Positions 1 through 62,662 of a stretch of 64,000 nt of DNA are shown piece after piece; positions within the stretch are counted from its first letter, which is position 1; every line of letters begins with the position of its first letter. The DNA is from Tragulus kanchil (lineage: Eukaryota > Chordata > Mammalia > Artiodactyla > Tragulidae): NCBI GenBank assembly GCA_022376925.1, contig JAIOJX010000004.1, positions 180,449,501-180,513,500 on the forward strand. The letters run 5' to 3'. The notes under the pieces are model-generated. The model saw nothing but the letters and a program-made list of their open reading frames with translations, was not told the DNA's origin and did no database searches. A program made the translations under genes and the position numbers.

Positions 1-95
1 CCCCATCACGTCTCTTTTTAAAAATTCTTATAGTTCTTTTCATCCATCTTTCTTTTTACTTTTTAAATATTTTTTGCCTCTAAGTCATCAGTTAT

Positions 96-323
96 TTTTT
101 CATCCATCTTTGTTCTTCTGCCTTTGTGGGCCTCCCATCGCAGTGGCCTCTCTTCTTGCAGAGCACCAGCTCTGGGCACATGTGCTCCAGAGCGCTGGCT
201 CATAAATGGACACACCGGTCCAGCTGCTCCACAGTACGTGGAATCTTCCCAGGCCACGGATTGAACAGGTGCCCCTTGCACTGCAAGGCGGACTCTCTAC
301 CCACTGGACCACCAGGGAAGCCC
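96..323 (-). mobile_element. CHR-related SINE (family A), copy at 1264-1491
   Basis: tRNA-like head (GGGCTTCCC-type end at right) and the family-A body with CTCTGGGCACATGTGCTCC, reading on the minus strand. Repeated in the duplicated block at 1264-1491. Confidence 0.75.
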
Positions 324-529
324 CTGCTGAATGTTTGTAAGAGATGAGGCCGCTGCGGGGGTGAGGATGGACTGGAGGGGTCTGGCAGACACAGAAGACC
401 TGCAGAAGCCTCTGCCAGTGACCCCTGGTTTGGTCATGGAGCAGTGGTGGAGACATACTGGGGCTGTGTTTTGGAGGTGCTGACCAGGACTGCTTCTGAT
501 TGGATATAAAGGGTGACAAGGGACTTCCC

Positions 530-690
530 TGGTCCAGTGGCTAAGCCTCCAAGCTCCCAAGGCAGGGGGCCAAGGTTCAATCCCTGGTCAGGGAACTGGA
601 TCCCATATGCTGCAACTAAAGGATCCTGCATGCAGCAATGGAGACTGACGATCCCGTGTGTCGCAAGGCCCAGCACAGTCAAGGAAAAGA
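530..690 (+). mobile_element. CHR-type SINE, copy at 1698-1858
   Basis: Begins GGGACTTCCCTGG, has a tRNA B-box-like GGTTCAATCCC and a GGGAACTGGATCCC segment. It is an older, diverged element. Confidence 0.7.
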
Positions 691-716
691 TGTCATGGCA
701 GTTCACCTCTCAGTGT

Positions 717-895
717 GAGTCACTCGGTCAGGTCTGACTTTCTGGGACCCCATGGACTGTAGCCTGACAAGCTCCCCTGTCCATGGAATTCCCCAGGCAA
801 GAATACTGGCGTGGGTAGCCATTCCTTTCTCCAGGGGATCTTCCCAACCCAGGGATCGAACCCTGGTCTCCTGCATGGCAGGCAGATTCTTTACC
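717..895 (-). mobile_element. Bov-tA SINE (truncated); complete copy at 1885-2084
   Basis: Minus-strand Bov-tA: BovA body (GAATACTGGCGTGGGTAGCC) followed by the tRNA-derived head GGGATCGAACCCTGG. In the first copy the head is cut at 897; in the second it is complete to CCACCAGGGAAG. Confidence 0.85.
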
Positions 896-2834
896 ATGCA
901 CGTGGCCTCCTGCTGCAGTTGGGGAACCTGCCACCAGGTGGACGGCAGTGACTGCCTTTGATCAGGCAGGCCACAGAGCCAGGGTTCGCCTCACCTCACG
1001 ACCCTGTCGTTAAGAGCAAGAAAGCAGCTATTTAGTACAAAATCCCACCACCTATCAGGGCCGTTCACACTGGGGAGCCACTTTGTCCCGCATGCCCTCT
1101 CCCCAGGGCCTCACGGGGCAGGGCAGCGGGGGTGGGGTGCTGAGGAGATCTGCTGAACGTTTGCTTTTTTCCCCATCACGTCTCTTTTTAAAAATTCTTA
1201 TAGTTCTTTTCATCCATCTTTCTTTTACTTTTAAATATTTTTTGCCTCTAAGTCATCAGTTATTTTTTCATCCATCTTTGTTCTTCTGCCTTTGTGGGCC
1301 TCCCATCGCAGTGGCCTCTCTTCTTGCAGAGCACCAGCTCTGGGCACATGTGCTCCAGAGCGCTGGCTCATAAATGGACACACCGGTCCAGCTGCTCCAC
1401 AGTACGTGGAATCTTCCCAGGCCACGGATTGAACAGGTGCCCCTTGCACTGCAAGGCGGACTCTCTACCCACTGGACCACCAGGGAAGCCCCTGCTGAAT
1501 GTTTGTAAGAGATGAGGCCGCTGCGGGGGTGAGGATGGACTGGAGGGGTCTGGCAGACACAGAAGACCTGCAGAAGCCTCTGCCAGTGACCCCTGGTTTG
1601 GTCATGGAGCAGTGGTGGAGACATACTGGGGCTGTGTTTTGGAGGTGCTGACCAGGACTGCTTCTGATTGGATATAAAGGGTGACAAGGGACTTCCCTGG
1701 TCCAGTGGCTAAGCCTCCAAGCTCCCAAGGCAGGGGGCCAAGGTTCAATCCCTGGTCAGGGAACTGGATCCCATATGCTGCAACTAAAGGATCCTGCATG
1801 CAGCAATGGAGACTGACGATCCCGTGTGTCGCAAGGCCCAGCACAGTCAAGGAAAAGATGTCATGGCAGTTCACCTCTCAGTGTGAGTCACTCGGTCAGG
1901 TCTGACTTTCTGGGACCCCATGGACTGTAGCCTGACAAGCTCCCCTGTCCATGGAATTCCCCAGGCAAGAATACTGGCGTGGGTAGCCATTCCTTTCTCC
2001 AGGGGATCTTCCCAACCCAGGGATCGAACCCTGGTCTCCTGCATGGCAGGCAGATTCTTTACCATCTGAGCCACCAGGGAAGACCTCCCACAGGCACCTC
2101 CTACGAGTGAGGGCAGTCTCCTTCCGTGACCACACTCAGGAAGCACGGCGTGGGTACCCCACACACCGTCCATATTGAAACTGCCCCACTGCCCTGATAG
2201 CTTTCATAGCTCTGTGCTTTCCTGTCCTGGACCTGAGCCCGGATACAAACCGCAATTTGCTTCCCTATCTCTGTAGCCCCTTTTGTTCAAGAACAGCTCC
2301 CCAGCCCCTTTTGGTCTTTCATGAAAAGTCCGGTCCGTAACTTCGTAGAATGTCCCTCAGTTTGAGTTTGTCTCCACAGGCAATAGATTTTTCAGCAGCA
2401 AGACTAGGAAAGGACGCCGTGTCCCTCCCCGTGCACCACGCGGGGGCAGCCAGCCAGCGTGCCCCGCGCTAGGACGCCAAGCGGCCACTTGGAGAAGGTA
2501 CTGTCTGCTAGATCTCCCATCCTAAGGGTGCCTTTCCCTCTGTAATCGACGTGTAATCTGAGGGGGGATACTTTGAGACCGTGCGAATATCCTGTTCCCT
2601 GACAACCCTTCACGCGGGAATTGAGCATCGGCTGGTGATTCGTGCCTCAACCAGCTATTTCCACCCTGGCTGCGACAGTTTCTTTCACTGGTTTCTCACC
2701 CTGCAGCCTCGCCCTGCTCCCATTTACCCTTCACATCCTTGCCCTAGTGAAACTCTAAAGGCACAAAACCGATTGCATCACGTCCCTTCTCAAAACCCTT
2801 CTGTGGTCCCCTACGACTCCTAGAAGAAAGTCCA

Positions 2835-3608: not shown

Positions 3609-5845
3609 CCCACCGCCAGCCCCTGCACAGCTGTGTCTGCTCCTCCTCCAACCCGGACTGCGGTTCCTCATCTCCCGTGTGTCTGCTTTCCTGGCCGATG
3701 AGCTCTCCAGGACAGGGACCATGCCTATCTCCTCCTGAACACCCAAGGCGTCTAGCATAAGGTCTTCCACACGGTTAGGGCTCTCGTGTCTGATGTCGGA
3801 ATACTACAGGAGTCATGGGAAACCAAGACTGCCCCGTGGGGTGCGGACGTGGATGCCCCGCCCCACATCTCCAAGTCCTGGTGCGACTGAAGTCATAGGC
3901 CAGGAGGCAACATAGTACTTTGGCCCAGACTTTGGGGCCCAGCATCCTGGGTCCACATACGAGCGAGATGCTGACCCGTGTCACAAGCATCTGTGGGGCT
4001 GGCCAGACCAGTGCCTTTTGTCTTTCTCTGGAAATATCACCTTGACTTCCTCTGGGCCGTCTCCTCTCCCCGACTCTCAGACCATGAGGTTTGCACAGGG
4101 GGCTGATCCCGTCCCTGGTCAGCAGGCTGGGACTTCATCTATAGGGCAGACTGCGCCCTCACACCGTGGGGTTGAAAATGAGGTCACTCCCATAGCCTGC
4201 CACTGCCGCTGCTCATCACGTCCCCGTCAGGGGAGGGTCTGGCTGAGGATGACGTCAACACCAAAGAAAGCAGAACAGAGACCAGATGCTGATGCCATTT
4301 GAACACCTGGATCCAGCCATGCCTGAACTCATGCCCCTGGACGTATACTCAGCCAGTTTCTGTCCCTTGCAGCCTAAGGCTGTGACCCACCAGAGCCAGG
4401 ATGACACAGTGAAAGCAGGTTGCCTAGCACCTTGTGTTCGCGCCATCCTTCTATGCGAACTGTTCCTGTTATTGACTCAAGCTGTCGAAGTAAGCTGTTC
4501 CCAGGGGCCCACGTGGCCAGAGAAATGGCTATCTGGTTCCCAGGTTCCTGGCCATCACCACACCTGCACTCACAGGGACCAAAGGGGCCTGGTAGAAGGC
4601 ACTTACCCTCCTTTTTCTGGCCTGCCATGTCTCCTCCTCCCACAGGGGATCGGGTGAGGAGAGGAGCAGCCTTGCGGGCACTGTCGGCCCGTGGCCCCTC
4701 CTGCGACTTCGGGATCATCACGGTGCCCACCGCCAGCCCCTGCACAGCTGTGTCTGCTCCTCCTCCAACCCGGACTGCGGTTCCTCATCTCCCGTGTGTC
4801 TGCTTTCCTGGCCGATGAGCTCTCCAGGACAGGGACCATGCCTATCTCCTCCTGAACACCCAAGGCGTCTAGCATAAGGTCTTCCACACGGTTAGGGCTC
4901 TCGTGTCTGATGTCGGAATACTACAGGAGTCATGGGAAACCAAGACTGCCCCGTGGGGTGCGGACGTGGATGCCCCGCCCCACATCTCCAAGTCCTGGTG
5001 CGACTGAAGTCATAGGCCAGGAGGCAACATAGTACTTTGGCCCAGACTTTGGGGCCCAGCATCCTGGGTCCACATACGAGCGAGATGCTGACCCGTGTCA
5101 CAAGCATCTGTGGGGCTGGCCAGACCAGTGCCTTTTGTCTTTCTCTGGAAATATCACCTTGACTTCCTCTGGGCCGTCTCCTCTCCCCGACTCTCAGACC
5201 ATGAGGTTTGCACAGGGGGCTGATCCCGTCCCTGGTCAGCAGGCTGGGACTTCATCTATAGGGCAGACTGCGCCCTCACACCGTGGGGTTGAAAATGAGG
5301 TCACTCCCATAGCCTGCCACTGCCGCTGCTCATCACGTCCCCGTCAGGGGAGGGTCTGGCTGAGGATGACGTCAACACCAAAGAAAGCAGAACAGAGACC
5401 AGATGCTGATGCCATTTGAACACCTGGATCCAGCCATGCCTGAACTCATGCCCCTGGACGTATACTCAGCCAGTTTCTGTCCCTTGCAGCCTAAGGCTGT
5501 GACCCACCAGAGCCAGGATGACACAGTGAAAGCAGGTTGCCTAGCACCTTGTGTTCGCGCCATCCTTCTATGCGAACTGTTCCTGTTATTGACTCAAGCT
5601 GTCGAAGTAAGCTGTTCCCAGGGGCCCACGTGGCCAGAGAAATGGCTATCTGGTTCCCAGGTTCCTGGCCATCACCACACCTGCACTCACAGGGACCAAA
5701 GGGGCCTGGTAGAAGGCACTTACCCTCCTTTTTCTGGCCTGCCATGTCTCCTCCTCCCACAGGGGATCGGGTGAGGAGAGGAGCAGCCTTGCGGGCACTG
5801 TCGGCCCGTGGCCCCTCCTGCGACTTCCGCGGGATCATCACGGTG
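3609..5845 (+). repeat. Tandem duplication 2 (3609-4725, 4726-5845)
   Basis: Copies abut exactly, offset 1117 (1120 at the end because copy A lacks CGC in TRIOBP exon 4). The junction is within TRIOBP exon 4. Confidence 0.95.
4607..4725 (-). pseudogene. Partial second copy of TRIOBP exon 4
   Basis: The 3' part of TRIOBP exon 4 (from the codon for V in VMIP to the GTAAGT donor) repeated inside the left copy of the 3609-5845 duplication. It lacks the acceptor and the DWDTIERQ codons, because at 4725 the sequence jumps back to the start of the repeated unit. It also lacks three bases (one Arg codon) found in the complete exon. It cannot be spliced as an internal exon and is most likely an assembly product. 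Confidence 0.75.
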
Positions 5846-5895: not shown

Positions 5896-6968
5896 CTGCC
5901 AGGAAGGAGAGGAGAGAGTCTGTTGGGAGAGCAAGAAGAGAGAGCCCAGGGCCTGCCCTCCCAGTGTGAGATGGGTCGATGGAAGGGAAAGGAACTGACA
6001 TTGAAAAAGCGCCCACTGTATACTCAGGACTGTCCTGGGCTCTTTGCAGGTGTGAGCTCCGCAGACCTTTCATCAACCCTGTGCGGCAGATGCCTCCATT
6101 GGCACTAAGACCTTGCCCACAGTCACATGCTGGGAAACAGTTTATAGAGGAGGAGGGGGACTGACACCCAGGGCAGTCGGACATTGTGTGGCAGGAGGGC
6201 CTGGGCAAAGGAGTCCCACTGCAGAGACACCCCAGGATCCAGAGAGGAGCAGACGCACTCGAACCCTAGGCCTGCCACTTCCCCGACGTGAGGCCTCTTG
6301 TGAGCTGCTTCTCTTCTCAGAGCCTCAGATTTCTTGCCCCAGAACAGGACATAGAAGTCTCTGCCTCAGAGTGGGGTGGCGACGCCTCCCAAGCCCTGTT
6401 CTGAGTATTATCACTTCCGCTCGGGGGCTCACGGAGAGCTCTGCCCCTTGCGCCCCAGGACAGCCCTTTGCGGTGGAACATCCTAGGAAGTTCCCCAAGT
6501 CTCCTCCTGGCCTGGCTCAATGCTGTCTCAAGCACCCACCCCCACCCTTTCCAGGCCCCCGGGCTGCTCCCTTCCCTCTGACCGTCAGAGACCTAGGCCA
6601 GGGCTGGTCACGGGGCTGAGCAGCGCGTGACCAGGGCGGGGCTCGGCACCAATCCCACTCTGGCTCTGGTACCGAACCCCACACCCCGGCCTTTGGGAAC
6701 TGCGTTTTTGGCAGTTGGAGCTGGTGATTCCCAGGGAGCTCCCTGCCAACGGAAACGTCTGCTGCCGTCTTTTCATGGCCAGACCCTCAGCCCCCGGGCC
6801 GGCCCTGCAGACCCCGCCCCTCCGCGGGCAGCCCCACATGCTGGCTAAGTCTGCAGAGGACCTGGGCTCCATTCCCTACTGGGAGAGGCTCAGCCCTGCC
6901 CGGAGGCCTGTGGGGGGGGGACCCCAGGTGGACACCTGCGCTGGGCCTGGCCTCCCGCCCCGTCTCAC
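5896..6968. other. TRIOBP intron between coding exons 3 and 4
   Basis: About 1.07 kb of GC-rich unique sequence with no SINE. The duplicated block 6658-8892 starts within it. No other feature is seen. Confidence 0.5.
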
Positions 6969-7158
6969 CACCAATGACGAGTCGCTGGTCTCATCGGGGG
7001 CTTCGCAGGCAGGGCTGGAGCTCGTGCCGGAGTCAGGGCTCTCGCTGAAGCTGCCGCACGGGGAGGGGGCCAGGCCCTCCAGATAGGGTGCTGCCTTGGG
7101 CTCCCGGCTCCTGGAGGCGGCTGTGAAGCCCTCTGCCAGGAGCCCTGCTGGCGGGCCC
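6969..7158 (-). CDS. TRIOBP: TRIOBP coding exon 3
   Basis: A 190-base exon with acceptor CTCTCCCAG and donor GTGAGA. Its first base completes the split codon from coding exon 2, and it then gives 63 codons ending in phase 0. The peptide includes RSREPKAAPYLEGLAPS and ends SDSSLV, which continues into DWDTIERQ of the next exon exactly as in human TRIOBP. The protein is acidic, serine-rich and probably disordered here. The sequence is present again at 8081-8270 within a 1.1 kb duplication. Confidence 0.92.
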
Positions 7159-7351
7159 CTGGGAGAGGAGACAGGCCCATGACGTTTTCCCTCAAAGTGA
7201 TGGGAGTTAGGAGGCACACCCCCCACCACGCAGGTACACACCGCCCCCCCGCCCCGTGTTTGAGTGGCAGAGGGAGCTAACACAGAGGCCTGTCTGTGCT
7301 CTAGCCTCCACATGGCCTGCCTCGTTTCACTCCAAGAGCATCCCTTTTAAG

Positions 7352-7440
7352 TGAGTGTAATGATTCCCATTTTACAGATGAGGAAAGTGAGGCCCAGAGA
7401 GGTCAAAGGACGGGACAAGGTCACAGAGCTAGCCAAAGGC
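7352..7440 (-). mobile_element. MIR fragment; copy at 8464-8552
   Basis: ATTTTACAGATGAGGAAAG followed by GGCCCAGAGAGG and AAGGTCACAGAGCTAG: MIR core in antisense. Confidence 0.75.
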
Positions 7441-8080
7441 AGAGAAACATTGTGACTCAGGGCTGTGGCTCCATGTCCCTGGAGCAGAAGAGAGACCCCC
7501 AACCTTGCTAAGACCGAGAAGACAGAATAGCGCTGGGCTAACAAGGGGGCTTTGGGACATAGCAGGGCTCCAGGGGCAGGGACAGGTCCCCCAGCCTGGA
7601 GACCAGGGTAGCGCACTGCAGCGAAAGCCCTGCTTTAAAGAAGCCAGTCGGGTAGTGCCGGCTATATCCCCAGTGACCCACAGATTCACCTATGAAATTG
7701 AAAAGGGTGAAGACCCTTGAAAGAGGCCTGTGGTCAAATAAGTTTGAGATCTGTTATATCCTTGTCCTACCTTCCTCACCTCTGGCTCTGGTACAACCCC
7801 ACCCCGGCTTTGGGAACTGCGTTTTGGCAGTTGAGCTGGTGATTCCCAGGAGCTCCTGCCAACGGAAACGCTGCTGCCGTCTTTTCATGGCCAGACCCTC
7901 AGCCCCCGGGCCGGCCCTGCAGACCCCGCCCCTCCGCGGGCAGCCCCACATGCTGGCTAAGTCTGCAGAGGACCTGGGCTCCATTCCCTACTGGGAGAGG
8001 CTCAGCCCTGCCCGGAGGCCTGTGGGGGGGGGACCCCAGGTGGACACCTGCGCTGGGCCTGGCCTCCCGCCCCGTCTCAC

Positions 8081-8270
8081 CACCAATGACGAGTCGCTGG
8101 TCTCATCGGGGGCTTCGCAGGCAGGGCTGGAGCTCGTGCCGGAGTCAGGGCTCTCGCTGAAGCTGCCGCACGGGGAGGGGGCCAGGCCCTCCAGATAGGG
8201 TGCTGCCTTGGGCTCCCGGCTCCTGGAGGCGGCTGTGAAGCCCTCTGCCAGGAGCCCTGCTGGCGGGCCC
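8081..8270 (-). CDS. TRIOBP: TRIOBP coding exon 3, second copy (in duplicated block)
   Basis: Copy of the exon at 6969-7158, shifted 1112 bases and identical in frame and splice sites. It belongs to the right half of the 6658-8892 tandem duplication. At 190 bases, using both copies would shift the frame, so both cannot be spliced into one functional TRIOBP mRNA. Confidence 0.7.
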
Positions 8271-9552
8271 CTGGGAGAGGAGACAGGCCCATGACGTTTT
8301 CCCTCAAAGTGATGGGAGTTAGGAGGCACACCCCCCACCACGCAGGTACACACCGCCCCCCCGCCCCGTGTTTGAGTGGCAGGGGGAGCTAACACAGAGG
8401 CCTGTCTGTGCTCTAGCCTCCACATGGCCTGCCTCGTTTCACTCCAAGAGCATCCCTTTTAAGTGAGTGTAATGATTCCCATTTTACAGATGAGGAAAGT
8501 GAGGCCCAGAGAGGTCAAAGGACGGGACAAGGTCACAGAGCTAGCCAAAGGCAGAGAAACATTGTGACTCAGGGCTGTGGCTCCATGTCCCTGGAGCAGA
8601 AGAGAGACCCCCAACCTTGCTAAGACCGAGAAGACAGAATAGCGCTGGGCTAACAAGGGGGCTTTGGGACATAGCAGGGCTCCAGGGGCAGGGACAGGTC
8701 CCCCAGCCTGGAGACCAGGGTAGCGCACTGCAGCGAAAGCCCTGCTTTAAAGAAGCCAGTCGGGTAGTGCCGGCTATATCCCCAGTGACCCACAGATTCA
8801 CCTATGAAATTGAAAAGGGTGAAGACCCTTGAAAGAGGCCTGTGGTCAAATAAGTTTGAGATCTGTTATATCCTTGTCCTACCTTCCTCACCTAAAAGCA
8901 AAACGCATGCTAGCAAACTAAAGCCTCTGACTAGTCCTGCAAAAAAAAAAAAAATTCAAATTTGTTTATCCCAGACTTTCTGAAACATATTTGATGAGAG
9001 TTATTTTGTTTTTAAATAATGTCCCCCTAGGACGAACACATAGTCCCAAAACAATGCTGATTTGATTCAATACTTCTTTAAAAAAAAAAAAAAGGGAGAC
9101 TGAGATATAAAAAGAGGCCAAAACTTAAGGTCCCACAGCCCATCAGGAAGGGAGATGAAACTGGAACTTGGGTTTCTAGACCCTCAGCTCTGCCCTCCTA
9201 AGGCACCATGGTCCCAAAGAGGGACTTTGGTAGCCAACTGAGGCCCCAGAGTGGAGTGAGCCTGCACCCCTCAGTGCGAGACTGTTTAATCTTTTAAAGC
9301 CAAAGGAACCAGGAAATGTGAGCGGGCTGTGGGCCATGCCCACGCAGGATGGGCGCATGGCTACTCCAACCCCCAAGCGAGGGCCCACGGCACATGCCCG
9401 CTGCGTCTGTGCCCAGGCCGAGTGGACAGGCCACGTGACCCACTCCAGCAGCCGTCCCAGGCCGAGGCTGCCATCATACAGGGGTGTAGGGTGGGATAGG
9501 GGAGGGCATGCTATCCAGGGTGCCCCTCCGCAGGCCCCAGAGTTGCACCCAC

Positions 9553-11814: not shown

Positions 11815-11946
11815 TGATTTTATTTTATTATTTTTGGCCCTGACCCGTGGCACGATGGATCCTTAGCTCCCCAACCATGGATCAGACCCATACCCCGTGC
11901 ACTGGCAACGCGATGTCTTAACCACTGGACCACCGAAGAGAAGTCC
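11815..11946 (-). mobile_element. CHR-type SINE
   Basis: Minus-strand head with CTTAACCACTGGACCACC and a diverged body. Confidence 0.7.
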
Positions 11947-12101
11947 CTACGTTTTCTAACACAGGTGAAGCTGTCAGAACTGGCTGTAACCCCAGAGGAT
12001 ACATCAGACCCTCAGGGATGAGTTTGTGCCTGAGTGTAACTAAGGACCCAGCTGGGAAATGCACAGCTCCATCCAGGCTTGGGGGATGGGGGGGGCCCAG
12101 C

Positions 12102-12436
12102 TTTTTTTTTTTTTTAAAGATTTATTTATTTATTTATTTTTGGCGGGGGTCGGGTTGGGGAGGGAGGGGAGCGGGCGGGCCACTTCTATTGGTCTTTCAT
12201 TTCTCTATTTTCATCCGTCTTTGTTCTTTGGCTCCTGCGGGCCTCCCATCACGGTGGCGTCTGTTGTCGCAGAGCACCAGCTCTGGGCGCATGCGCTCCA
12301 GAGCTCCGGCTCAGTGATTGGACACATCGGTCCAGCCGCTCCGCGGCACGTGGGATCTTCCCAGCCCAGGGATCAAACTGGCGCCCCTTGCACTGGAAGG
12401 CGGTGTCCTTATCCACTGGACCACCAGGGGAAGCCC
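12102..12436 (-). mobile_element. CHR-related SINE (family A); copy at 13229-13563
   Basis: Full-length minus-strand element with a poly(T)/TTTATTTA tail at left and its head at right. Target-site duplication GGGCCCAGCTTTTTT flanks it (about 12091-12105 and 12436-12450), so it is an independent retroposition. Confidence 0.9.
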
Positions 12437-12494
12437 GGGCCCAGCTTTTTTAACCCACAGGCTTTATGACTTCATGTGTTTGAAACTGGGTTTT

Positions 12495-12820
12495 GGGCTT
12501 CCCTGGTGGCCCAGTGGGTGAGGACACCACCTTGCAGTGCAAGGGGCGCCAGTTTGATCCCTGGCCTGGGAAGATCCCATGTGCCGCGGAGCAGCTGGAC
12601 CCATGTGTCCAATTACCGAGCCAGAGCTCTGGAGCGCATGCGCCCAGAGCCAGTGCTCTGCAACAACAGAGGCCACCGCAATGGGAGGCCCACACGGGCC
12701 AAAGAACAAAAAGATGGATGAAAATAGACAAATGAAAGACCATTAGAAGTGGCCCGCCTGCTCCCCTCCTGCCCCACCAAAAATAAATAAATAAATCTTT
12801 AAAAAAAAAAAAGAAAAGAA
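12495..12820 (+). mobile_element. CHR-related SINE (family A); copy at 13622-13947
   Basis: Full-length plus-strand element with an AAATAAATAAATAAATC tail. Target-site duplication GAAACTGGGTTT flanks it. It is inserted just upstream of an older Bov-tA and opposes the element at 12102-12436. Confidence 0.9.
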
Positions 12821-12828
12821 ACTGGGTT

Positions 12829-13023
12829 TCCCTGGTGGCTCAGCGGTAAACAATCTGCCTTTCAAGGCAGGAGACGCAGGTTTGATCCCTGGATCAGGGA
12901 GACCCCTTGGAGAAGGGCATGGCAGCCCACTCCAGTATTCTTGCCTGGGAAAGCCCATGGACGGCGGAGCCTGGCGGGCTACAGTTCAGGGGTCTCAAAA
13001 GAGTCAGACACAACTTAACAGCA
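12829..13023 (+). mobile_element. Bov-tA SINE; copy at 13956-14150, tail again at 15241-15287
   Basis: Head TTTCCCTGGTGGCTCAGCGG, B-box-like GGTTTGATCCCTGG, and BovA body CACTCCAGTATTCTTGCC. Confidence 0.88.
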
Positions 13024-14107
13024 TTTTAAACTACTCATCCACGAGCAGGGCCAGATCCTGGTGGTGAGAAATCCCTCGTTTTCTAACACAGGTGAAGCTG
13101 TCAGAACTGGCTGTAACCCCAGAGGATACATCAGACCCTCAGGGATGAGTTTGTGCCTGAGTGTAACTAAGGACCCAGCTGGGAAATGCACAGCTCCATC
13201 CAGGCTTGGGGGATGGGGGGGGCCCAGCTTTTTTTTTTTTTTAAAGATTTATTTATTTATTTATTTTGGGCGGGGGTCGGGTTGGGGAGGGAGGGGGGGG
13301 GGGGGGCCACTTCTATTGGTCTTTCATTTCTCTATTTTCATCCGTCTTTGTTCTTTGGCTCCTGCGGGCCTCCCATCACGGTGGCGTCTGTTGTCGCAGA
13401 GCACCAGCTCTGGGCGCATGCGCTCCAGAGCTCCGGCTCAGTGATTGGACACATCGGTCCAGCCGCTCCGCGGCACGTGGGATCTTCCCAGCCCAGGGAT
13501 CAAACTGGCGCCCCTTGCACTGGAAGGCGGTGTCCTTATCCACTGGACCACCAGGGGAAGCCCGGGCCCAGCTTTTTTAACCCACAGGCTTTATGACTTC
13601 ATGTGTTTGAAACTGGGTTTTGGGCTTCCCTGGTGGCCCAGTGGGTGAGGACACCACCTTGCAGTGCAAGGGGCGCCAGTTTGATCCCTGGCCTGGGAAG
13701 ATCCCATGTGCCGCGGAGCAGCTGGACCCATGTGTCCAATTACCGAGCCAGAGCTCTGGAGCGCATGCGCCCAGAGCCAGTGCTCTGCAACAACAGAGGC
13801 CACCGCAATGGGAGGCCCACACGGGCCAAAGAACAAAAAGATGGATGAAAATAGACAAATGAAAGACCATTAGAAGTGGCCCGCCTGCTCCCCTCCTGCC
13901 CCACCAAAAATAAATAAATAAATCTTTAAAAAAAAAAAAGAAAAGAAACTGGGTTTCCCTGGTGGCTCAGCGGTAAACAATCTGCCTTTCAAGGCAGGAG
14001 ACGCAGGTTTGATCCCTGGATCAGGGAGACCCCTTGGAGAAGGGCATGGCAGCCCACTCCAGTATTCTTGCCTGGGAAAGCCCATGGACGGCGGAGCCTG
14101 GCGGGCT

Positions 14108-16348
14108 ACAGTTCAGGGGTCTCAAAAGAGTCAGACACAACTTAACAGCATGTTTGAAACTACTCATCCACGAGCAGGGCCAGATCCTGGTGGTGAGAAA
14201 GCTTCTCTCTCCTGCTGAGGTCTGGCTCCCGCGCTCCTCCTAGTAAATAAACTGCCCTCATCACCACTGAGTCCCCCAAGCACCTCGCAGTCATCCAAAC
14301 AAATCCAAACAGACCGCCTAGCCCAGGAACCCTGCCTCGGGGAATAATTAGCAGTCGGCCATGTTAGAGCCCCTCCACATTACCACTCAGTTAGTCCTGA
14401 AATGTGTCCATGTATCTCCATCCCCACGTCTCTGTCATCTCTGATACGAACAACTGCACCTTCTCCTCCTCGGTCACCTGGTTCACTCACACTCCCTGCT
14501 GTCCATGCTCCTGCAGCCAGAGTGACTTTTGAAAACGTAAATCTGATCGATTGCTCCCGTGTTTAAACTCTTGAGCGGTTCCCCATCCCTCTCAGGAGAA
14601 ATCCAAAGTCCCCAGCATGTCCACAGCTTCCCACAAGGCCGGTGAGACCTAGCCCCTGCCCCATTCTCCATCTCAGGCTTCTTTCCACCCTCAGGTGTGC
14701 CTCCTCCTTTCTGCCTTAGGGCCTTTGCACAGACTGTTCCCTTCCTCTCCTCTTCCCCCAGCCTCACTGGCCATGCCCTCGTGGCGCTCACCAAGCCGCT
14801 AAAAGAGCAGAAAAATTCCGCATGTCACATCATTTACCCTTATGCCACTTGCTGTTCCTTTATAACATTTATCACAACCATGATCAAACAATTGCTGGCA
14901 TGGTTACTCTCTTCATCTCCCTTTCTCTTGCTAGGCTAGAAACCTCTTGAACCAGGACCTGTGTCTATACATTTGAACACATGGGCTGGCCCCAGGTCCC
15001 CACCAGGAAGTCACGGGGCTGAGACCAGAACTGATCAAGTCCCTCCTTCTGTTCCAAGCTTGACATCTCCCCACCCACGGGGTAAAGGTCATCTGCAAGG
15101 GAGACGGACTCACAGGGCTTTCAGGCATCTGCTCCCTGAACCTGAGGGTGAGGACTACGGAGCTATTTAGGGCAGAATTGGGACAGGTAGAAAAGAATCT
15201 TCCAGGCTTAGTTTTCTCACTGTTGAAACTGGAGCTCACAGTTCAGGGGTCTCAAAAGAGTCAGACACAACTTAACAGCATGTTTGAAACTACTCATCCA
15301 CGAGCAGGGCCAGATCCTGGTGGTGAGAAAGCTTCTCTCTCCTGCTGAGGTCTGGCTCCCGCGCTCCTCCTAGTAAATAAACTGCCCTCATCACCACTGA
15401 GTCCCCCAAGCACCTCGCAGTCATCCAAACAAATCCAAACAGACCGCCTAGCCCAGGAACCCTGCCTCGGGGAATAATTAGCAGTCGGCCATGTTAGAGC
15501 CCCTCCACATTACCACTCAGTTAGTCCTGAAATGTGTCCATGTATCTCCATCCCCACGTCTCTGTCATCTCTGATACGAACAACTGCACCTTCTCCTCCT
15601 CGGTCACCTGGTTCACTCACACTCCCTGCTGTCCATGCTCCTGCAGCCAGAGTGACTTTTGAAAACGTAAATCTGATCGATTGCTCCCGTGTTTAAACTC
15701 TTGAGCGGTTCCCCATCCCTCTCAGGGAGAAATCCAAAGTCCCCAGCATGTCCACAGCTTCCCACAAGGCCGGTGAGACCTAGCCCCTGCCCCATTCTCC
15801 ATCTCAGGCTTCTTTCCACCCTCAGGTGTGCCTCCTCCTTTCTGCCTTAGGGCCTTTGCACAGACTGTTCCCTTCCTCTCCTCTTCCCCCAGCCTCACTG
15901 GCCATGCCCTCGTGGCGCTCACCAAGCCGCTAAAAGAGCAGAAAAATTCCGCATGTCACATCATTTACCCTTATGCCACTTGCTGTTCCTTTATAACATT
16001 TATCACAACCATGATCAAACAATTGCTGGCATGGTTACTCTCTTCATCTCCCTTTCTCTTGCTAGGCTAGAAACCTCTTGAACCAGGACCTGTGTCTATA
16101 CATTTGAACACATGGGCTGGCCCCAGGTCCCCACCAGGAAGTCACGGGGCTGAGACCAGAACTGATCAAGTCCCTCCTTCTGTTCCAAGCTTGACATCTC
16201 CCCACCCACGGGGTAAAGGTCATCTGCAAGGGAGACGGACTCACAGGGCTTTCAGGCATCTGCTCCCTGAACCTGAGGGTGAGGACTACGGAGCTATTTA
16301 GGGCAGAATTGGGACAGGTAGAAAAGAATCTTCCAGGCTTAGTTTTCT
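14108..16348 (+). repeat. Tandem duplication 5 (14108-15217, 15238-16348)
   Basis: Offset 1130-1131, with 20 unshared bases between the copies. The first 93 bases are also part of duplication 4, so that piece occurs three times (12980-13071, 14108-14200, 15238-15330). Confidence 0.95.
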
Positions 16349-17215: not shown

Positions 17216-17428
17216 AACTTCCCGGGTGGCTCTGGTGGTAAAGCGCCCACCTGCCAGCGCAGGAGACCTAAGAGACGCGGGTTCAATCCCTGGATCAGGA
17301 ACATGTCCTGGTGGAGGGCATGGCAACCCACTCCAGTATTCTTGCCTGGAGAATCCCATGGACAGAGGAGCCTGGTGGGCTCCAGTCCACAGGGTTGCAG
17401 AGCTGGACACGACTGAAGCAACTTAGTA
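17216..17428 (+). mobile_element. Bov-tA SINE; 3' part copied at 18430-18543
   Basis: Complete element, head CTTCCCGGGTGGCTCTGG to ACACGACTGAAGCAACTTAG. The second copy starts mid-element at the duplication junction. Confidence 0.88.
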
Positions 17429-17695
17429 CTAATGCACACACAGCAAGAAATAGGTTATATCAGACTTAGTAAAAAAAAAAAAAAAAATTGTAAGAGCAGG
17501 AGGAGAATGACCGATCTTTGGGAAGCACTAACCTGGTTCTATTGCCTCATTGCACAGACTGGGAAAACTGAGGTTCTGTCCACAGGAAGGTCAGTGTCTG
17601 AGTTCAGCCACAAGTTACTACCCCAGCCAAGCGCACCCCATCACAGACCCACCCCTGTCCCACACCACCCCAACCACGCAGGGAAGCCTACCCAC

Positions 17696-17809
17696 CTGCT
17701 GCCTTGCTCTGTGGGTCTCCCCAGGGCAGCGGGAGTTCTGACAGCAGCTCTGGGCAGGCACATCCACCTCGAAGTGTCCCCAGGGGGCATTTCCAGCCAC
17801 CGGCTCCAT
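17696..17809 (-). CDS. TRIOBP: TRIOBP coding exon 1 (start codon exon)
   Basis: TRIOBP is an actin-bundling, TRIO-binding scaffold; its long isoforms build stereocilia rootlets in hair cells and the short isoform (Tara) stabilises F-actin. This exon holds the ATG (complement of 17807-17809) and 38 codons, and ends in CAG before a GTGGGT donor. The peptide starts MEPVAGNAPWGHFEVDV and keeps the length, HFE and CQN elements and RAR-Q end of the human N-terminus as I know it, though only about half of the residues agree. The phase (0) fits the next exon at 9553-9692. A second copy lies at 18811-18924 inside a 1.1 kb duplication. The upstream noncoding exon is uncertain. The ortholog assignment rests on four exons in the right order next to NOL12. 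Confidence 0.85.
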
Positions 17810-44820: not shown

Positions 44821-45548
44821 GCAAGGATCTCTTAAGGGATCTTGCTGGGCTGCCAGCCGGGACCCTGGGAGACATGAATTTGTGTCCCAGCCTCTTTGGT
44901 CCAGGTCAAGGACTCCCTCCAGATGGTGACCTCTAGGAGGGCAGGTGTCCTATCGTGTCTGTCTCCCGCCCTGGTGCCCAGAGTCACGCCTCACATACAG
45001 TAGGCAGGCGCTCATACCTGCCGGGCGAGTGGATAACTAGCACACCGGCTGAGTGGAGCTCACGGCAACGCCTGCCTCTGAGGCTTTGGAAAGAATGACC
45101 CAGGCGGTGCGTGTGCGGCTTCTCTGATCCTGTCCGCTGGTCCTCACTGGCAGCGAGAGGCAGCCTCTCCCCATACAACCACCTCCCCTCTCCACTATCT
45201 GATTAACAAATGACGCTCAAGGCGGCTGGCTGACGGTGTCCAAGGTCACAAGACTGCGGAGACACTAGGCCAGCTGGCCTAATGGATGACGAGTTAAGGA
45301 AGCAGTGAAAAGTCGAGAAAGCGAATAGCGCAGGAAGAAACGGACCTCTAAGGGCAAGCAGCCAGGGTGACGTCCTTTCGTTCCCTCCTCCCGCCCCCCT
45401 CCCAGCCTCGGGTCCCGCCCACAGCGGCACCAAGTCTACCAGAGTCCCAGCTGGCAGCCCAGCAAGACCCCTTGAGAGCCCAGGGTCCCCTGGGCAGCCC
45501 GCACTGTGTAGATACGGATGCTGAGACCCGATCCGGGCCTCAGCCCAC

Positions 45549-45722
45549 CTCCACAATCGTTCCCGGCTTGAAGGGGAAGGTAGTTCCCCACTGCTCGGTC
45601 CCCCAGGTCCCGCTGTTCTTGCTGTTACACACGATGGCGTTGCCGGCCCCACACGAGTCAAAGAGCGCGCTGAAGTGCAGGCACAGGTTTTGCTCGTCAT
45701 GAGGGGACAGGTGACCTTGAGG
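45549..45722 (-). CDS. LGALS1: LGALS1-locus galectin, coding exon 3, second copy
   Basis: Same sequence as 44441-44614, shifted 1108 bases, with the same altered binding residues and the same phase problem. It lies in the right half of the 44411-46637 duplication, so it is not independent evidence for the frame break. Confidence 0.65.
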
Positions 45723-46917
45723 CTGCTCTGCAGGCAGCAGCCCCCTCAAGACCCACCCGTCTGTCCCACCCGGTCCCTGTGAATGCGCCTTGCTGAGGAA
45801 ACTTGCTGAGCCGAGAGGCCGGAAACCCAGATTCTAGCTGTCTACAGAAACCTCCTCCCTGCTGTGCGACCTTGAGCCAGCCGCTGCCCCTCTCTGGGTC
45901 TCAGCATCCGTATCTACACAGCTGCACAGCAAGGATCTCTTAAGGGATCTTGCTGGGCTGCCAGCCGGGACCCTGGGAGACATGAATTTGTGTCCCAGCC
46001 TCTTTGGTCCAGGTCAAGGACTCCCTCCAGATGGTGACCTCTAGGAGGGCAGGTGTCCTATCGTGTCTGTCTCCCGCCCTGGTGCCCAGAGTCACGCCTC
46101 ACATACAGTAGGCAGGCGCTCATACCTGCCGGGCGAGTGGATAACTAGCACACCGGCTGAGTGGAGCTCACGGCAACGCCTGCCTCTGAGGCTTTGGAAA
46201 GAATGACCCAGGCGGTGCGTGTGCGGCTTCTCTGATCCTGTCCGCTGGTCCTCACTGGCAGCGAGAGGCAGCCTCTCCCCATACAACCACCTCCCCTCTC
46301 CACTATCTGATTAACAAATGACGCTCAAGGCGGCTGGCTGACGGTGTCCAAGGTCACAAGACTGCGGAGACACTAGGCCAGCTGGCCTAATGGATGACGA
46401 GTTAAGGAAGCAGTGAAAAGTCGAGAAAGCGAATAGCGCAGGAAGAAACGGACCTCTAAGGGCAAGCAGCCAGGGTGACGTCCTTTCGTTCCCTCCTCCC
46501 GCCCCCCTCCCAGCCTCGGGTCCCGCCCACAGCGGCACCAAGTCTACCAGAGTCCCAGCTGGCAGCCCAGCAAGACCCCTTGAGAGCCCAGGGTCCCCTG
46601 GGCAGCCCGCACTGTGTAGATACGGATGCTGAGACCCAGAGAGGGGCAGGGGCTGGCTCAGGGTCACACAGCAAGGAGAAGGCAGGGAGCAGCCGAAGTA
46701 GATGACGAGGCCGCAGCTGGTCCGATTTAAGGGGGCGACCCTGGTGGGGGCGTCCAGACCCCGCGGAGGAAGTGGCGCAACCAGAAGACGTAGCCTCAGC
46801 GACCGCAGACCTGAAGACCGCCCCTCCCGGAGGGAGGAGCCGAGCCGGCCAGCCACGCCCCTGCCTGGTCGGCTCCTCCCCCGAGCTCAGCCCCCGCCCC
46901 CGCCGTCGACCCCTCAC

Positions 46918-46997: not shown

Positions 46998-48248
46998 CTG
47001 CGCAGACGAGACCCCGCCCAGCCGGGTTAGAGGATGCAGGATCGGGGTGGGGGGTGCTGGGGGGGTGGGAGGGTAGGGTCGGGGTGAAGGGATAAGGTCT
47101 TCCCGCTCTGGGTGCTCTGACCAGGGAGACCTGAAGCCTGAGAAACTCGGCAGCAAGTCCTAGACTCTCCTTTGGGTGGTCCCGGGCAAGTCCCTACTCC
47201 CAGCTGGGTCAGTTTCTCGTCTGTAACAGGACTGAGGGTCGAGAAGACAGGACCTAGAGGTTTCTGTGGTTTAGCCTGGGGATTTTAGAGGCAGAGTAGC
47301 CTACTAAGTGGAGTGCCGTGGTTCATCGCCTGCCTCACTGAACAGATGCATAGAGCTAGGCTCCACAAGGGTCGCTGCGAACTGGGGGCAAAGGAAGGTA
47401 AGTGAGGCATCTGTCCCTCTGCTGGAGAGGAAGAGGTCCCGGGGCTGGGCTGTGCCCACCATCCCCTTCCAGCATCTTTGTGGAGAGAGGGCCAGGGGTT
47501 GGAGGCCCCTAAGGTTCCCGGCTAGATCTCAGATTCTCAGGCCCTTAAGGTTCACAGCTAAAGTGCAAAGCTTAACTAGTCTGTTTCCTACTCGCCTGAA
47601 ACTTGAGTCCTCCCGGCCTGCAGAAGTTTCTTGCATCCTCCTAGATCCCTTATCCTACACACACAACCCTCCCAGCCTGGAGGAATGGGTGATCTTGAAC
47701 TCCCGCAGCGGGCATCTGACCAGCCCGGACAGAAGTACCCGCTGCTGCCGGCTAACCTACGTGGGCTTCCCCGGGGCAGCCTGTCTCAGATCCTGGCGAC
47801 TTTTCAGAGCTCTCTGCAGCACAGGGTGATGCTGCCCCGGCCCAGGAACTGGGGACAGCTGCAGGAAGGAGGGGACAGGAGGTTCTTTGGGGGTGGAGGA
47901 GCGGTAAGGGACAGTGGCCAGGGCACTGTGAAAGTGCCCCCCCCAGGTCCAGTCGGCCACACCCTTTCCACTCCCACTTCTGAGAGACCTGCAGAATGTC
48001 AGAGCTTAGCAAAAATAATTGTGCTGTCAGACCCTGGAGGAATCTATAAAATTCTTAGGCCCAAGAAGGCTTTGGGGGACTGTGGCACCCACACCCATTT
48101 TACAGACACAGCCACTGAGGCCCAGGAAAGACACCTGTTCAAGGCCACACCACGGGAACTAGAACCCAGATCCTGATCTGCCCTCGCTCTCCCCGGCTGA
48201 GCCCCAAGGCCGTCTCTAGCCCTTGGGGTAGGGGGTCCCCATACTCAC

Positions 48249-48257
48249 ACAAGCCAT
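48249..48257 (-). CDS. LGALS1: LGALS1-locus galectin, coding exon 1 (start)
   Basis: Galectin-1 is a secreted and cytosolic homodimeric lectin for beta-galactosides, with roles in immune regulation and cell adhesion. Its first coding exon is only nine bases, ATGGCTTGT (Met-Ala-Cys), followed by the GTGAGT donor, exactly as seen here on the minus strand. A TATA-like TTAAAAGGG (complement of about 48342-48350) lies about 90 bases upstream, as in human LGALS1. Position between PDXP and NOL12 also says LGALS1. The downstream exons are, however, strongly diverged. A second copy is at 49339-49347. Confidence 0.85.
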
Positions 48258-49338
48258 GACTGAAGACAGGAAGATGTTCCTGGAACTTCAGCACCAGTCC
48301 GACGACTGTCGGAGAGATGCGGTTCTCCCCGATCGCTCCCACCCTTTTAACTGGACCAGACCCCTGTGAGTCCCGCCCCCTGGATGCTGAGCCAATTGTC
48401 AGCTCAGGAAGGGGATGGGGGGCCACAGGAGGCGGAGTTAATTGAAGCCCGTTCTGGAGCAGAGATAGCCAGAGTGAAGAGGCCCTGCCCTGTTCCTTCT
48501 TAGCCCCCGCCACCCGCAAGGAGAGGAAGAGGTCCCGGGGCTGGGCTGTGCCCACCATCCCCTTCCAGCATCTTTGTGGAGAGGGCCAGGGGTTGGAGGC
48601 CCCTAAGGTTCCCGCTAGATCTCAGATTCTCAGGCCCTTAAGGTTCACAGCTAAAGTGCAAAGCTTAACTAGTCTGTTTCCTACTCGCCTGAAACTTGAG
48701 TCCTCCCGGCCTGCAGAAGTTTCTTGCATCCTCCTAGATCCCTTATCCTACACACACAACCCTCCCAGCCTGGAGGAATGGGTGATCTTGAACTCCAGCG
48801 GGCATCTGACCAGCCCGGACAGAAGTACCCGCTGCTGCCGGCTAACCTACGTGGGCTTCCCCGGGGCAGCCTGTCTCAGATCCTGGCGACTTTTCAGAGC
48901 TCTCTGCAGCACAGGGTGATGCTGCCCCGGCCCAGGAACTGGGGACAGCTGCAGGAAGGAGGGGACAGGAGGTTCTTTGGGGGTGGAGGAGCGGTAAGGG
49001 ACAGTGGCCAGGGCACTGTGAAAGTGCCCCCCCCAGGTCCAGTCGGCCACACCCTTTCCACTCCCACTTCTGAGAGACCTGCAGAATGTCAGAGCTTAGC
49101 AAAAATAATTGTGCTGTCAGACCCTGGAGGAATCTATAAAATTCTTAGGCCCAAGAAGGCTTTGGGGGACTGTGGCACCCACACCCATTTTACAGACACA
49201 GCCACTGAGGCCCAGGAAAGACACCTGTTCAAGGCCACACCACGGGAACTAGAACCCAGATCCTGATCTGCCCTCGCTCTCCCCGGCTGAGCCCCAAGGC
49301 CGTCTCTAGCCCTTGGGGTAGGGGGTCCCCATACTCAC

Positions 49339-49347
49339 ACAAGCCAT
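49339..49347 (-). CDS. LGALS1: LGALS1-locus galectin, coding exon 1, second copy
   Basis: Identical nine-base start exon with its TATA-like element (complement of about 49432-49440), 1090 bases to the right, inside the 47424-49611 duplication. It is most likely redundant with 48249-48257. Confidence 0.65.
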
Positions 49348-49809
49348 GACTGAAGACAGGAAGATGTTCCTGGAACTTCAGCACCAGTCCGACGACTGTC
49401 GGAGAGATGCGGTTCTCCCCGATCGCTCCCACCCTTTTAACTGGACCAGACCCCTGTGAGTCCCGCCCCCTGGATGCTGAGCCAATTGTCAGCTCAGGAA
49501 GGGGATGGGGGGCCACAGGAGGCGGAGTTAATTGAAGCCCGTTCTGGAGCAGAGATAGCCAGAGTGAAGAGGCCCTGCCCTGTTCCTTCTTAGCCCCCGC
49601 CACCCGCAAGGTTCAAGTGCCACCTCCCATTCTCCTACCTACCCATTCCCAAAACTGTGCAATGGTAAGCAGTGGGAGAAGCCAGTGGAAAATAGTGTAA
49701 GGATGAGTAGATCCAAGAATTGGTGGGAAGTGAGTTGGGGCTAGCTGGCTGAGATCTGGAGGGTACCCAGAGAAGGCGCTCAGAGGCCTTCAAGAGTTAG
49801 AGTTGGGGG

Positions 49810-56120: not shown

Positions 56121-56136
56121 AAAGGTAAACCTGGGA

Positions 56137-58873: not shown

Positions 58874-59190
58874 TCAGGCCTCCAAGCCCTCCATCAAGTC
58901 TGCGATGCTGTCCACGTAGTAGTGGGGCACCAGGTCGTGCTGGCCGGCTGCCAAGTAGGCCTGGGCCTCCTCCAGGCGGGAGACGCCCGTGAGCGTGAGC
59001 ACGGTGGTCATGCCACAGCGGTGGCCGAAGAGGATGTCCGTTTCCAGCCGGTCGCCCACCATCAGCGTGCGGCCGGGGTCCACGCGGAAGTGCTCTGTGA
59101 TGCACTCGAACATGTAGGGGCTGGGCTTGCCCACCACCAGGGCCTGGCGGCCCGAGGCTGTCTCCACGGCGGCGGCCAGGCTCCCAGTGC
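58874..59190 (-). CDS. PDXP: PDXP (chronophin) last coding exon
   Basis: PDXP is a HAD-family phosphatase that dephosphorylates pyridoxal 5'-phosphate and also cofilin phospho-Ser3. This exon (acceptor GTGTCCCCGCAG) encodes the C-terminal 104 residues after a split Gly codon: SLAAAVETASGRQALVVGKP, then the HAD motif IV segment MVGDRLETDILFG with the Mg-binding acidic residues, and the end DLMEGLEA and stop. It is almost the same as human PDXP and of the same length. PDXP has two coding exons; the first, with the nucleophile Asp, is not found up to 64000, so it lies outside. The long 58650-59399 minus frame is a shadow. Confidence 0.96.
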
Positions 59191-60104
59191 CTGCGGGGAC
59201 ACGGAGACTCGGTCAGTGCAGGCGGCAGCGGAGAAGGCATCAGGCCTGGTAATGAAGTCTCATAGGGGGAGACTCGTCTCTGAAACGTGTCAAAGGCTGC
59301 TTGCTTCCCAGTCTTAGAGGGAGGGCTAAGAACACAGACGCTGTGACCAGCTGCCTGCACTGCCACCCCATCCCCACTTTTCTTGGGCAGGCTGTTCATC
59401 TCTTTGTGCCTCTACTTTCCCATCTCTAATATGGGGGTGTTGACAGCACTCTGTCATGCGGTTGCTCTAAGGCCCGGCTGAGCCACCCCATAGGACCCGG
59501 CCTGCCCAGTCACTCCGGCCTGTGGCCATTTTCCCCCGGCCGCCACACAGTTCTGGGCAAGCCAACCTCTCTCGAGTTCCCTTGGGCTCACTGTAAAGGG
59601 GGGATCCAAGCGACGTCAACCTGCAGAGAGGTGCTGTGGGCGCCACCAGGACAAGTGCTTTGGAAATGGAAAAGCACTTAACCAACAGTGGCTGCGGTTA
59701 TTGCTACAAGAACGGGCCCTCCGGGCATTGGAAACTGGCCCAGCCCCTCTGGAACACAGCAGGGCAGAGAAACGTTCGCACCTCTGACCCAGTCCGCCCC
59801 CTTTGGGAAAGGGATCACAAGGCAAGAACTCAGACTGGGACGGAAAGCTACATGCTTGTAGATGTCCGCGGCCGCAGTAACTATAAACAGCAGAGCTGTG
59901 GAACGCACCCAAGTACTGAACAATAGGAGACTGTTGATCACGGAGGGCTCTGATTCCCAGCCCAGACCCTCCTGCTCCATACAATGAGTCTACTGTGCTT
60001 GTCCCAGCGGGACATCTCCGTGCCAGAATGTTCTATCTTCACACTAATGTCCCCGAACAAATGAGGATGATAATCACAATTGACTAAGACATTCTAATGT
60101 GCGG

Positions 60105-60235
60105 GAGCTCGTAAAATGGGAGTGCACCCATTTTACAGATGAGAACGCTGATAGTGTCATTAAGTAACTTGTCCAGGGTTGCACAGATTAATCAGTGGCC
60201 GAGAAAGGCTATGCATTCAGGTGGGTCTGACCCTG
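60105..60235 (-). mobile_element. MIR fragment
   Basis: CCATTTTACAGATGAGAACG, AAGTAACTTGTCCAGGGTTG and CACAGATTAATCAGTGG: antisense MIR core. Confidence 0.75.
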
Positions 60236-60375
60236 GCCTCGAGTTCCCTTGGGCTCACTGGAAAGAGGCACAAGAGAGCCAGCGTGTACTGGCTCCGGAG
60301 TGCTGAGTGTTTCATTTTCAGGAATTCTGTGAGCTGGTGGTTAGACAAAGCCACTATGAAAAGTCAACTTACATG

Positions 60376-62662
60376 AACTTAATCAAATATGTTTAAGACA
60401 AAGATAATAAATTATCAAATTTCATCACTTTCTAATTATTTGACCGTCAACTATGCTCTTGACGTTATTTACTTTTGTAAGTGTGGAAATATTACAGAAT
60501 GGTGTGTACACTGATTTTCCCAACGCCAGGATGGGAAGTGACGTCACACTGGTCGGCTGACATCGGCCACCAGGGGGAGCACTTACATTACAGAAATTGG
60601 CAAAAGTAGAAATCAGGGTCTTCCCGTTACTAAAGACTTACCCGTACTCCACTGCTCTGATCCCAGCTGGGCCTCCTATCCCTCTCCTCACAGTGCATGA
60701 CCCTCAAGTCGATTAAGCCAAAGGTGCAGAAGGTGCACAAACGGGAAGAGTCCTCAGCCCTGCGGCCCCACGGGAGCAAGAGGCACTCCCCTGGGATCCG
60801 GCAGAGCCGGCCCAGAGCCACCCTGCTGAGCACGTCTCCCTGACCTCTGACCTATAACTTGCCCCCTTGTTTTCCAAACAACTGGATCAGGAAGAAAACT
60901 CATTTACCCTTTGGCTTGAAATTCCCTCCAGGATGGGAAGGGCTCAACTGAGTCGTGCCAGTGGGATTTTCGCGGCTGAAGAACGGAGGCTCCGTTAGCA
61001 CCTTCTTTCCTATGAGGTCTGAGCCGGTCACTCTCGACCCTGGTGTCCCACCTCATTCACTCAGCCAGCATCTCTGAGGCCCAACTATGGGCCAGGCTCC
61101 GGGGTCAGAGCAGTGACTGCGGGAGGGAGCGTCCCAGTAGGGGAGTCGGAAGTCACTCGGCCCTCGGACCACCCCATCCCGCTCTTCGGAACATCCTGTC
61201 AGTCCAGGCTGCCGTGTATCTTGCTGGTGACGTATTCCTAAGTCAGCAGGTCTTTCTATTCGCCAGCTCAAGTGCCTGCCATGTGATTAACGAGCCGAGC
61301 ACACAATTAAAAGATCCACAGGGACAGGGGTGGGGGCTCTGGGGTGAGATTCACATTATTTCAGATTTTATACCCATGGGGGCCTTTATTTAAAATGTGG
61401 CTCCATTTACAAAGCAGCGGGATGCAGTGGTGCTCACACAGCACAGCAGCGCTCTATTTGCTGAGCTCTGTCTCCCCCTCGTGGCTGTGGGGATGACCAG
61501 CAGGGCTGGCGGGGCCAGGGCTCTAACTTAATCAAATATGTTTAAGACAAAGATAATAAATTATCAAATTTCATCACTTTCTAATTATTTGACCGTCAAC
61601 TATGCTCTTGACGTTATTTACTTTTGTAAGTGTGGAAATATTACAGAATGGTGTGTACACTGATTTTCCCAACGCCAGGATGGGAAGTGACGTCACACTG
61701 GTCGGCTGACATCGGCCACCAGGGGGAGCACTTACATTACAGAAATTGGCAAAAGTAGAAATCAGGGTCTTCCCGTTACTAAAGACTTACCCGTACTCCA
61801 CTGCTCTGATCCCAGCTGGGCCTCCTATCCCTCTCCTCACAGTGCATGACCCTCAAGTCGATTAAGCCAAAGGTGCAGAAGGTGCACAAACGGGAAGAGT
61901 CCTCAGCCCTGCGGCCCCACGGGAGCAAGAGGCACTCCCCTGGGATCCGGCAGAGCCGGCCCAGAGCCACCCTGCTGAGCACGTCTCCCTGACCTCTGAC
62001 CTATAACTTGCCCCCTTGTTTTCCAAACAACTGGATCAGGAAGAAAACTCATTTACCCTTTGGCTTGAAATTCCCTCCAGGATGGGAAGGGCTCAACTGA
62101 GTCGTGCCAGTGGGATTTTCGCGGCTGAAGAACGGAGGCTCCGTTAGCACCTTCTTTCCTATGAGGTCTGAGCCGGTCACTCTCGACCCTGGTGTCCCAC
62201 CTCATTCACTCAGCCAGCATCTCTGAGGCCCAACTATGGGCCAGGCTCCGGGGTCAGAGCAGTGACTGCGGGAGGGAGCGTCCCAGTAGGGGAGTCGGAA
62301 GTCACTCGGCCCTCGGACCACCCCATCCCGCTCTTCGGAACATCCTGTCAGTCCAGGCTGCCGTGTATCTTGCTGGTGACGTATTCCTAAGTCAGCAGGT
62401 CTTTCTATTCGCCAGCTCAAGTGCCTGCCATGTGATTAACGAGCCGAGCACACAATTAAAAGATCCACAGGGACAGGGGTGGGGGCTCTGGGGTGAGATT
62501 CACATTATTTCAGATTTTATACCCATGGGGGCCTTTATTTAAAATGTGGCTCCATTTACAAAGCAGCGGGATGCAGTGGTGCTCACACAGCACAGCAGCG
62601 CTCTATTTGCTGAGCTCTGTCTCCCCCTCGTGGCTGTGGGGATGACCAGCAGGGCTGGCGGG
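60376..62662 (+). repeat. Tandem duplication 14 (60376-61513, 61525-62662)
   Basis: Offset 1149, 11 unshared bases between copies, no length differences noticed. It lies in PDXP intron 1. Confidence 0.95.

Follow-up and report, generated by a model that had tools for sequence, protein, structure and literature searches.

Why does a single 64,000-nucleotide stretch of the Tragulus kanchil assembly GCA_022376925.1 (contig JAIOJX010000004.1, positions 180,449,501 to 180,513,500 of the forward strand; hereafter the window) contain fourteen segments of about 1.1 kb that are each followed closely by a second, nearly identical copy? The copies were examined for their lengths, junctions, differences and gene content. 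The duplications are very probably false, the product of an assembly fault in which overlapping consensus pieces were concatenated without being merged, and they are almost certainly not a biological feature of this genome.

Adjacent copies of near-constant length

The duplicated units were detected by a self-BLAST search of the 64-kb window, and each pair of copies, here A and B, was then aligned globally. All 14 direct duplications reported in a preliminary description of this locus, with offsets of 1.09-1.17 kb, were recovered, at offsets of 1,091-1,170 bp and identities of 98.0-100% (Table 1). The copies of units 8 and 14 were identical, with zero differences. The 13 complete units were 1,092-1,161 bp long, with a mean of 1,120 bp and a standard deviation of 18 bp. 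Copy A of unit 1 would start before the first base of the window, and the full unit would measure about 1,168 bp. The offsets add up to 15,734 bp, while the surplus sequence in the window amounts to about 15.5 kb because unit 1 partly precedes it. The window contained no further direct repeat offset by about 1.1 kb (at least 50 bp, at least 90% identity, 30 self-match rows). The 30 rows comprised the 14 units, two short matches that exist because neighboring units overlap, and 14 others that are presumably short interspersed elements (SINEs).

Two of the starts listed earlier were slightly displaced, as unit 4 begins at 11938 rather than 11941 and unit 12 at 44419 rather than 44411, and unit 1 is truncated by the window start. 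The segments had also been said to share nothing but SINEs. This description overlooks units 4 and 5, which overlap by about 92 bp, and units 10 and 11, which overlap by about 51 bp.

Among the 13 complete pairs, nine abut or share 1-6 bases. The exceptions were unit 9, which shares 15 bases, and units 5, 11, and 14, which carry 20, 13, and 11 extra bases between their copies, respectively. No common motif was found at the starts, ends, or junctions of the 13 complete units, where the information did not exceed that at random positions (p = 0.75-0.94). Similarly, the duplicated units showed no bias in GC content (0.567, versus 0.576 in single-copy DNA).

Differences between the copies and doubled exons

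In the global alignments of the 14 pairs, 80 columns differed: 34 were among the opening 130 columns, 24 among the final 130, and the remaining 22 in the stretch between. The spread of point mutations along the copies that is typical of a biological tandem duplication was not observed, as 58 of the 80 differing columns lay within the outer 130+130 columns, or the outer 23% of the unit. The absent bases were unevenly divided between the copies. Within the first 130 columns, all 17 absent bases were absent from copy B; within the last 130, copy A was short of 17 bases and copy B of two, which both belong to the ambiguous 15-bp junction of unit 9. Base loss falls on whichever copy lies at the internal junction, affecting A at its end and B at its start. 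By column, this asymmetry reached a Fisher p of 2e-8 under the assumption of independent columns, a value that is overstated because the differing columns cluster, with unit 3 supplying 10 of the first 17 losses and unit 11 nine of the last 17, partly in a CT-rich run. Counted per unit end, a net loss on the junction copy was observed at all five starts and all four ends with indels (9/9, p = 0.004). Such a pattern is expected if the end of the first piece and the start of the second are thinly supported consensus. An old duplication, in contrast, would be expected to have its differences spread out, with neither copy systematically short at the junction.

Because units 4/5 and 10/11 overlap, each of these two stretches exists in three copies: one closes a piece, one lies inside the following piece, and one opens yet another. 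The piece-end copy deviates by two bases in the 4/5 overlap, and the piece-start copy by three in the 10/11 overlap, while the other two copies agree in each case. The third copy outvotes the piece-end version in both of the two overlaps. Comparisons with SINE relatives in the window were made for several units; the SINE peptides are taken to be Bov-tA-like and point to a ruminant. At the end of unit 9, the relatives scored the interior copy higher (63.5 versus 34.6 and 49.1 versus 34.6 bits), and the interior copy was also preferred in unit 4 (columns 203 and 232-238; 91.5 versus 86.9 and 117 versus 106 bits). In unit 6, the best relative tied and the next one, itself doubled by unit 4, preferred the interior copy by 4.5 bits. 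The SINE in this unit continues through the start of A and is truncated at the start of B, where its peptide deviates at three places from the consensus.

Genes were sought with query sequences. Additionally, one Pfam scan covered 137 open reading frames (ORFs) of at least 60 amino acids in one copy of each unit. A second covered 82 of the 182 minus-strand ORFs in a list of ORFs of at least 58 amino acids not wholly within units, which also included 186 plus-strand ORFs. Nop25 was matched by one of the 82 ORFs and a galectin, its member unnamed by the tool, by one of the 137; one weak hit to a family of viral glycoproteins (E = 0.0096, among the 137 ORFs) was attributed to chance. The exons doubled were NOL12 exons 1 and 4 and exon 3 of a galectin-1-like gene, and all other matched exons of both genes were single. 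NOL12 presented its normal series of exons, in order, once each pair was counted once. Its exon 4 is 143 bp long, which is not a multiple of three, and in a transcript with both copies spliced the frame would shift, with a stop after nine codons of the second copy. The duplications thus hit two genes at three sites, a pattern to be expected of errors that ignore content. Taken together, the base losses at piece ends, the votes of the third copies, the doubled exons, one of them frame-breaking, and the lack of a boundary motif support the assembly fault that the preliminary description had proposed.

Origin of the duplications

What was observed directly is that the segments are duplicated at a near-constant length, that bases are lost at the piece ends, and that exons are doubled. 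Under the proposed fault, the contig would have been assembled from consecutive consensus pieces, each pair having one overlap of roughly constant length, about 1.12 kb or perhaps about 1.04 kb plus ragged ends. The two versions of this overlap would have gone unrecognized as the same sequence at 14 joins, and both would have been written end to end as A and B. No single read would then be expected to carry both copies. The failure to merge may have been due to ragged, thinly covered piece ends, and the program responsible may have been a node-overlap assembler such as wtdbg2, which fits in part.

False duplications at piece boundaries, with copies of differing consensus quality, have been described for vertebrate assemblies by the Vertebrate Genomes Project (PMC8081667). 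In the false homotype duplication defined there, one locus occurs twice in tandem at the boundary of assembled pieces, as it does here, and the copies differ in consensus quality, a likeness judged here from the letters only. The published boundary type has copies of about the (corrected) read length with a gap between them after scaffolding. Adjacent near-identical copies (98.0-100%) were found in 14 of 14 pairs of the window and no gap between them in any; the window contains 0 N, and therefore does not represent the gap-bearing sub-type of scaffolded boundaries but rather a join within a contig. The case is of the false homotype duplication kind, in a gap-free form of near-constant length.

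Several observations weigh against this interpretation. Of the 80 differing columns, 22 lie away from the unit ends, and the 11-20 junction bases of units 5, 11, and 14 are visibly explained by neither flank. For the end of unit 11, the window holds a relative of the junction copy alone, which it matches weakly (33.7 bits) and contrary to the pattern; for units 1 and 7, the relatives are either tied or uninformative, with a weak match to one copy. The gap expected between copies of the published type at contig boundaries is missing here. A literature search found no description of this exact fault, and a constant tandem artefact of about 1 kb was not described in the available excerpts of PMC8228171, PMC11259980, PMC8081667, PMC8434745, PMC7247394, PMC11659978, PMC8152183, and PMC9448747. 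The evidence comes from the sequence of the 64-kb window.

Real tandem duplications would call for an unknown process in this ruminant that copies sequence-independent units of about 1.12 kb many times in one locus. Their sole support is the presence of the copies in the sequence as given, and the direct orientation and high identity of the copies are indeed shared with segmental and tandem gene duplications. The near-constant length, the absent boundary motif, the base losses that track internal junctions, the piece ends outvoted by third copies, and the NOL12 exon copy that breaks the frame all speak against a biological origin, which we regard as extremely improbable. Heterozygous haplotype segments laid side by side, or heterotype false duplications, are errors described for vertebrate assemblies (PMC8081667), and a psyllid paper concludes that mixed individuals gave rise to false tandem duplications (PMC11659978). 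Allelic differences, however, should spread along the unit without favoring base loss at the junction, two of the pairs are identical, and a constant unit length would be unexpected. A heterotype origin is accordingly considered very unlikely.

If the duplications are an artefact, a specific program can be weighed. The assembler wtdbg2 forms nodes of about 1,024 bp from 256-bp bins, computes a consensus per edge, and connects these consensuses through the node that they have in common, which a failed join would put out twice. The window resembles this arrangement in having segments of about 1 kb common to consecutive consensus pieces, with a unit length close to, yet above, 1,024 bp. The complete units measure 1,092-1,161 bp instead, an excess for which ragged ends could account. 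Units 4 and 5 start 1,042 bp apart and units 10 and 11 start 1,080 bp apart, and their overlaps of 92 and 51 bp resemble back-to-back nodes with ragged ends. The collapsed start-to-start intervals ranged from 1,042 to 11,856 bp, and six of 13 deviated from a multiple of 1,040 bp by no more than 5% of that period, which was picked post hoc; these six include four consecutive intervals of 4158, 1042, 2078, and 2069 bp, and the other seven were off. A grid of 950-1180 bp (best at about 1,060 bp) was fitted as well by 16, 42, and 29 of 1000 jittered controls for starts, ends, and mid-points, respectively. A grid of 256-bp bins (tested at 230-300 bp) was unsupported, as 646, 312, and 418 of 1000 controls were as good, although nodes taken from different reads could blur a bin grid. 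The earlier proposal of a fuzzy-Bruijn-graph assembler with nodes of about 1 kb is thus suggestive only.

The literature contains points on both sides. A goat paper describes wtdbg2 as working in two steps, a layout with edge sequences followed by consensus, and reports its trial on that species (PMC8434745); the program was also used for yaks from Nanopore reads (PMC9448747). In contrast, according to a snail-genome paper, it yields fewer false duplications than other assemblers (PMC8152183). Granted an artefact, we put the chance that wtdbg2/wtpoa-cns itself was at fault at about even. Polishing, gap-filling, or contig-stitching windows with an overlap of about 1 kb, concatenated untrimmed, would result in the same junction anatomy and piece-end errors. 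A fixed window size predicts constant spacing, and such windows fit worse than a graph of fixed-length nodes because the intervals vary between 1,042 and 11,856 bp; again granted an artefact, this source is possible but rather doubtful.

With overlapping pieces concatenated unmerged, about 15.5 kb of the 64 kb would be spurious. In automatic annotation, NOL12 and the galectin-1-like gene would appear as broken genes with falsely duplicated exons, and any scan for young tandem duplications would include these false copies. The near-constant offset of about 1.1 kb, the lack of a gap, and the base losses close to junctions provide a simple test, applicable to the sequence of any assembly. The finding is useful for curation only.

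Coordinates, gene content, and minor features

Table 1. Duplicated units and matched exons in the window (positions in bp from the first base of the window)
Feature	Span	Strand	Copy A	Copy B	Offset (bp)	Remarks
Unit 1	1..2065		1-897 (truncated by window start)	probably from ~898; matched part 1171-2065	1170	99.8% identity
Unit 2	3609..5845		3609-4725	4726-5845	1117	A short of 3 bases near its end
Unit 3	6658..8893		6658-7781	7780-8893	1122	B short of 10 bases in first 101 columns
Unit 4	11938..14200		11938-13071	13066-14200	1128	end of A without 2 bases present in both other copies
Unit 5	14108..16348		14108-15217	15238-16348	1130	first ~92 bp also end of unit 4
Unit 6	17316..19547		17316-18432	18430-19547	1114	
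Unit 7	20499..22816		20499-21655	21656-22816	1157	
Unit 8	31104..33288		31104-32197	32195-33288	1091	100% identity; contains NOL12 exon 4, doubled
Unit 9	34452..36691		34452-35579	35565-36691	1113	NOL12 exon 1 doubled; end inside tRNA-like sequence
Unit 10	37985..40246		37985-39115	39115-40246	1130	
Unit 11	40195..42406		40195-41290	41304-42406	1109	first ~51 bp also end of unit 10; start of B outvoted by two copies
Unit 12	44419..46637		44419-45529	45527-46637	1108	galectin-1-like exon 3 doubled
Unit 13	47424..49611		47424-48521	48520-49611	1096	B short of 6 bases in first 282 columns
Unit 14	60376..62662		60376-61513	61525-62662	1149	100% identity
PDXP last exon	58877-59212	-				HAD-type hydrolase by Pfam
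Galectin-1-like exon 2	47003-46920	-				single
Galectin-1-like exon 3 match		-	44438..44590	45546..45698		unit 12
Galectin-1-like exon 4	44147-44001	-				single; PDB galectin-1 match
NOL12 exon 1 match		-	35029..35109	36140..36220		unit 9; with start codon
NOL12 exon 2	33947-33828	-				single
NOL12 exon 3	33582-33523	-				single
NOL12 exon 4		-	31792..31934 (match span 31935-31786)	32883..33025 (match span 33026-32877)		unit 8; identical copies of 143 bp; splice sites of A read from sequence
NOL12 later exons	near 30571 and 30176	-				single

The HAD-type hydrolase exon at 58877-59212 is presumably that of PDXP, and the order of the three genes here, PDXP, LGALS1, NOL12, is the one usual in mammals. 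The galectin at 44001-47003 on the minus strand, in the position of LGALS1 between the other two genes, is only 57-79% identical per exon to bovine galectin-1. HFSAL stands in place of the HFNPR motif, and exon 3 was unmatched in its first part; no second galectin-1 match in the window was better than E = 0.65. It may be a decayed extra copy, in which case the true gene would be missing or would lie outside the window, or else a gene that has diverged to an unusual degree. Ruminant contamination that could serve as a second assembly was sought with the PDXP exon; in viral_contigs, none of 46 candidate stretches was confirmed. Against genome_contigs, at least three loci (L001-L003) were confirmed among at least 593 candidates; they carried bacterial titles, were 37-52% identical, and were not used.

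Two stretches of the window are free of duplications, at 22817-31103 (8.3 kb) and 49612-60375 (10.8 kb). ARAGORN identified tRNA-Gly-like sequences at 36653-36726 and 2008-2081, both on the minus strand, the former of which also passed Rfam. The former contains the end of unit 9 (copy B) and the latter that of unit 1 (copy B), and both sequences are probably SINE-derived. Additionally, a SINE-like fragment of 130 bp at 41006-41135, present again at 42113-42242 through unit 11, was 100% identical to 49808-49937, which lies 8.8 kb away with different flanks; this identity may stem from recent local copying, from gene conversion, or from a further assembly error.

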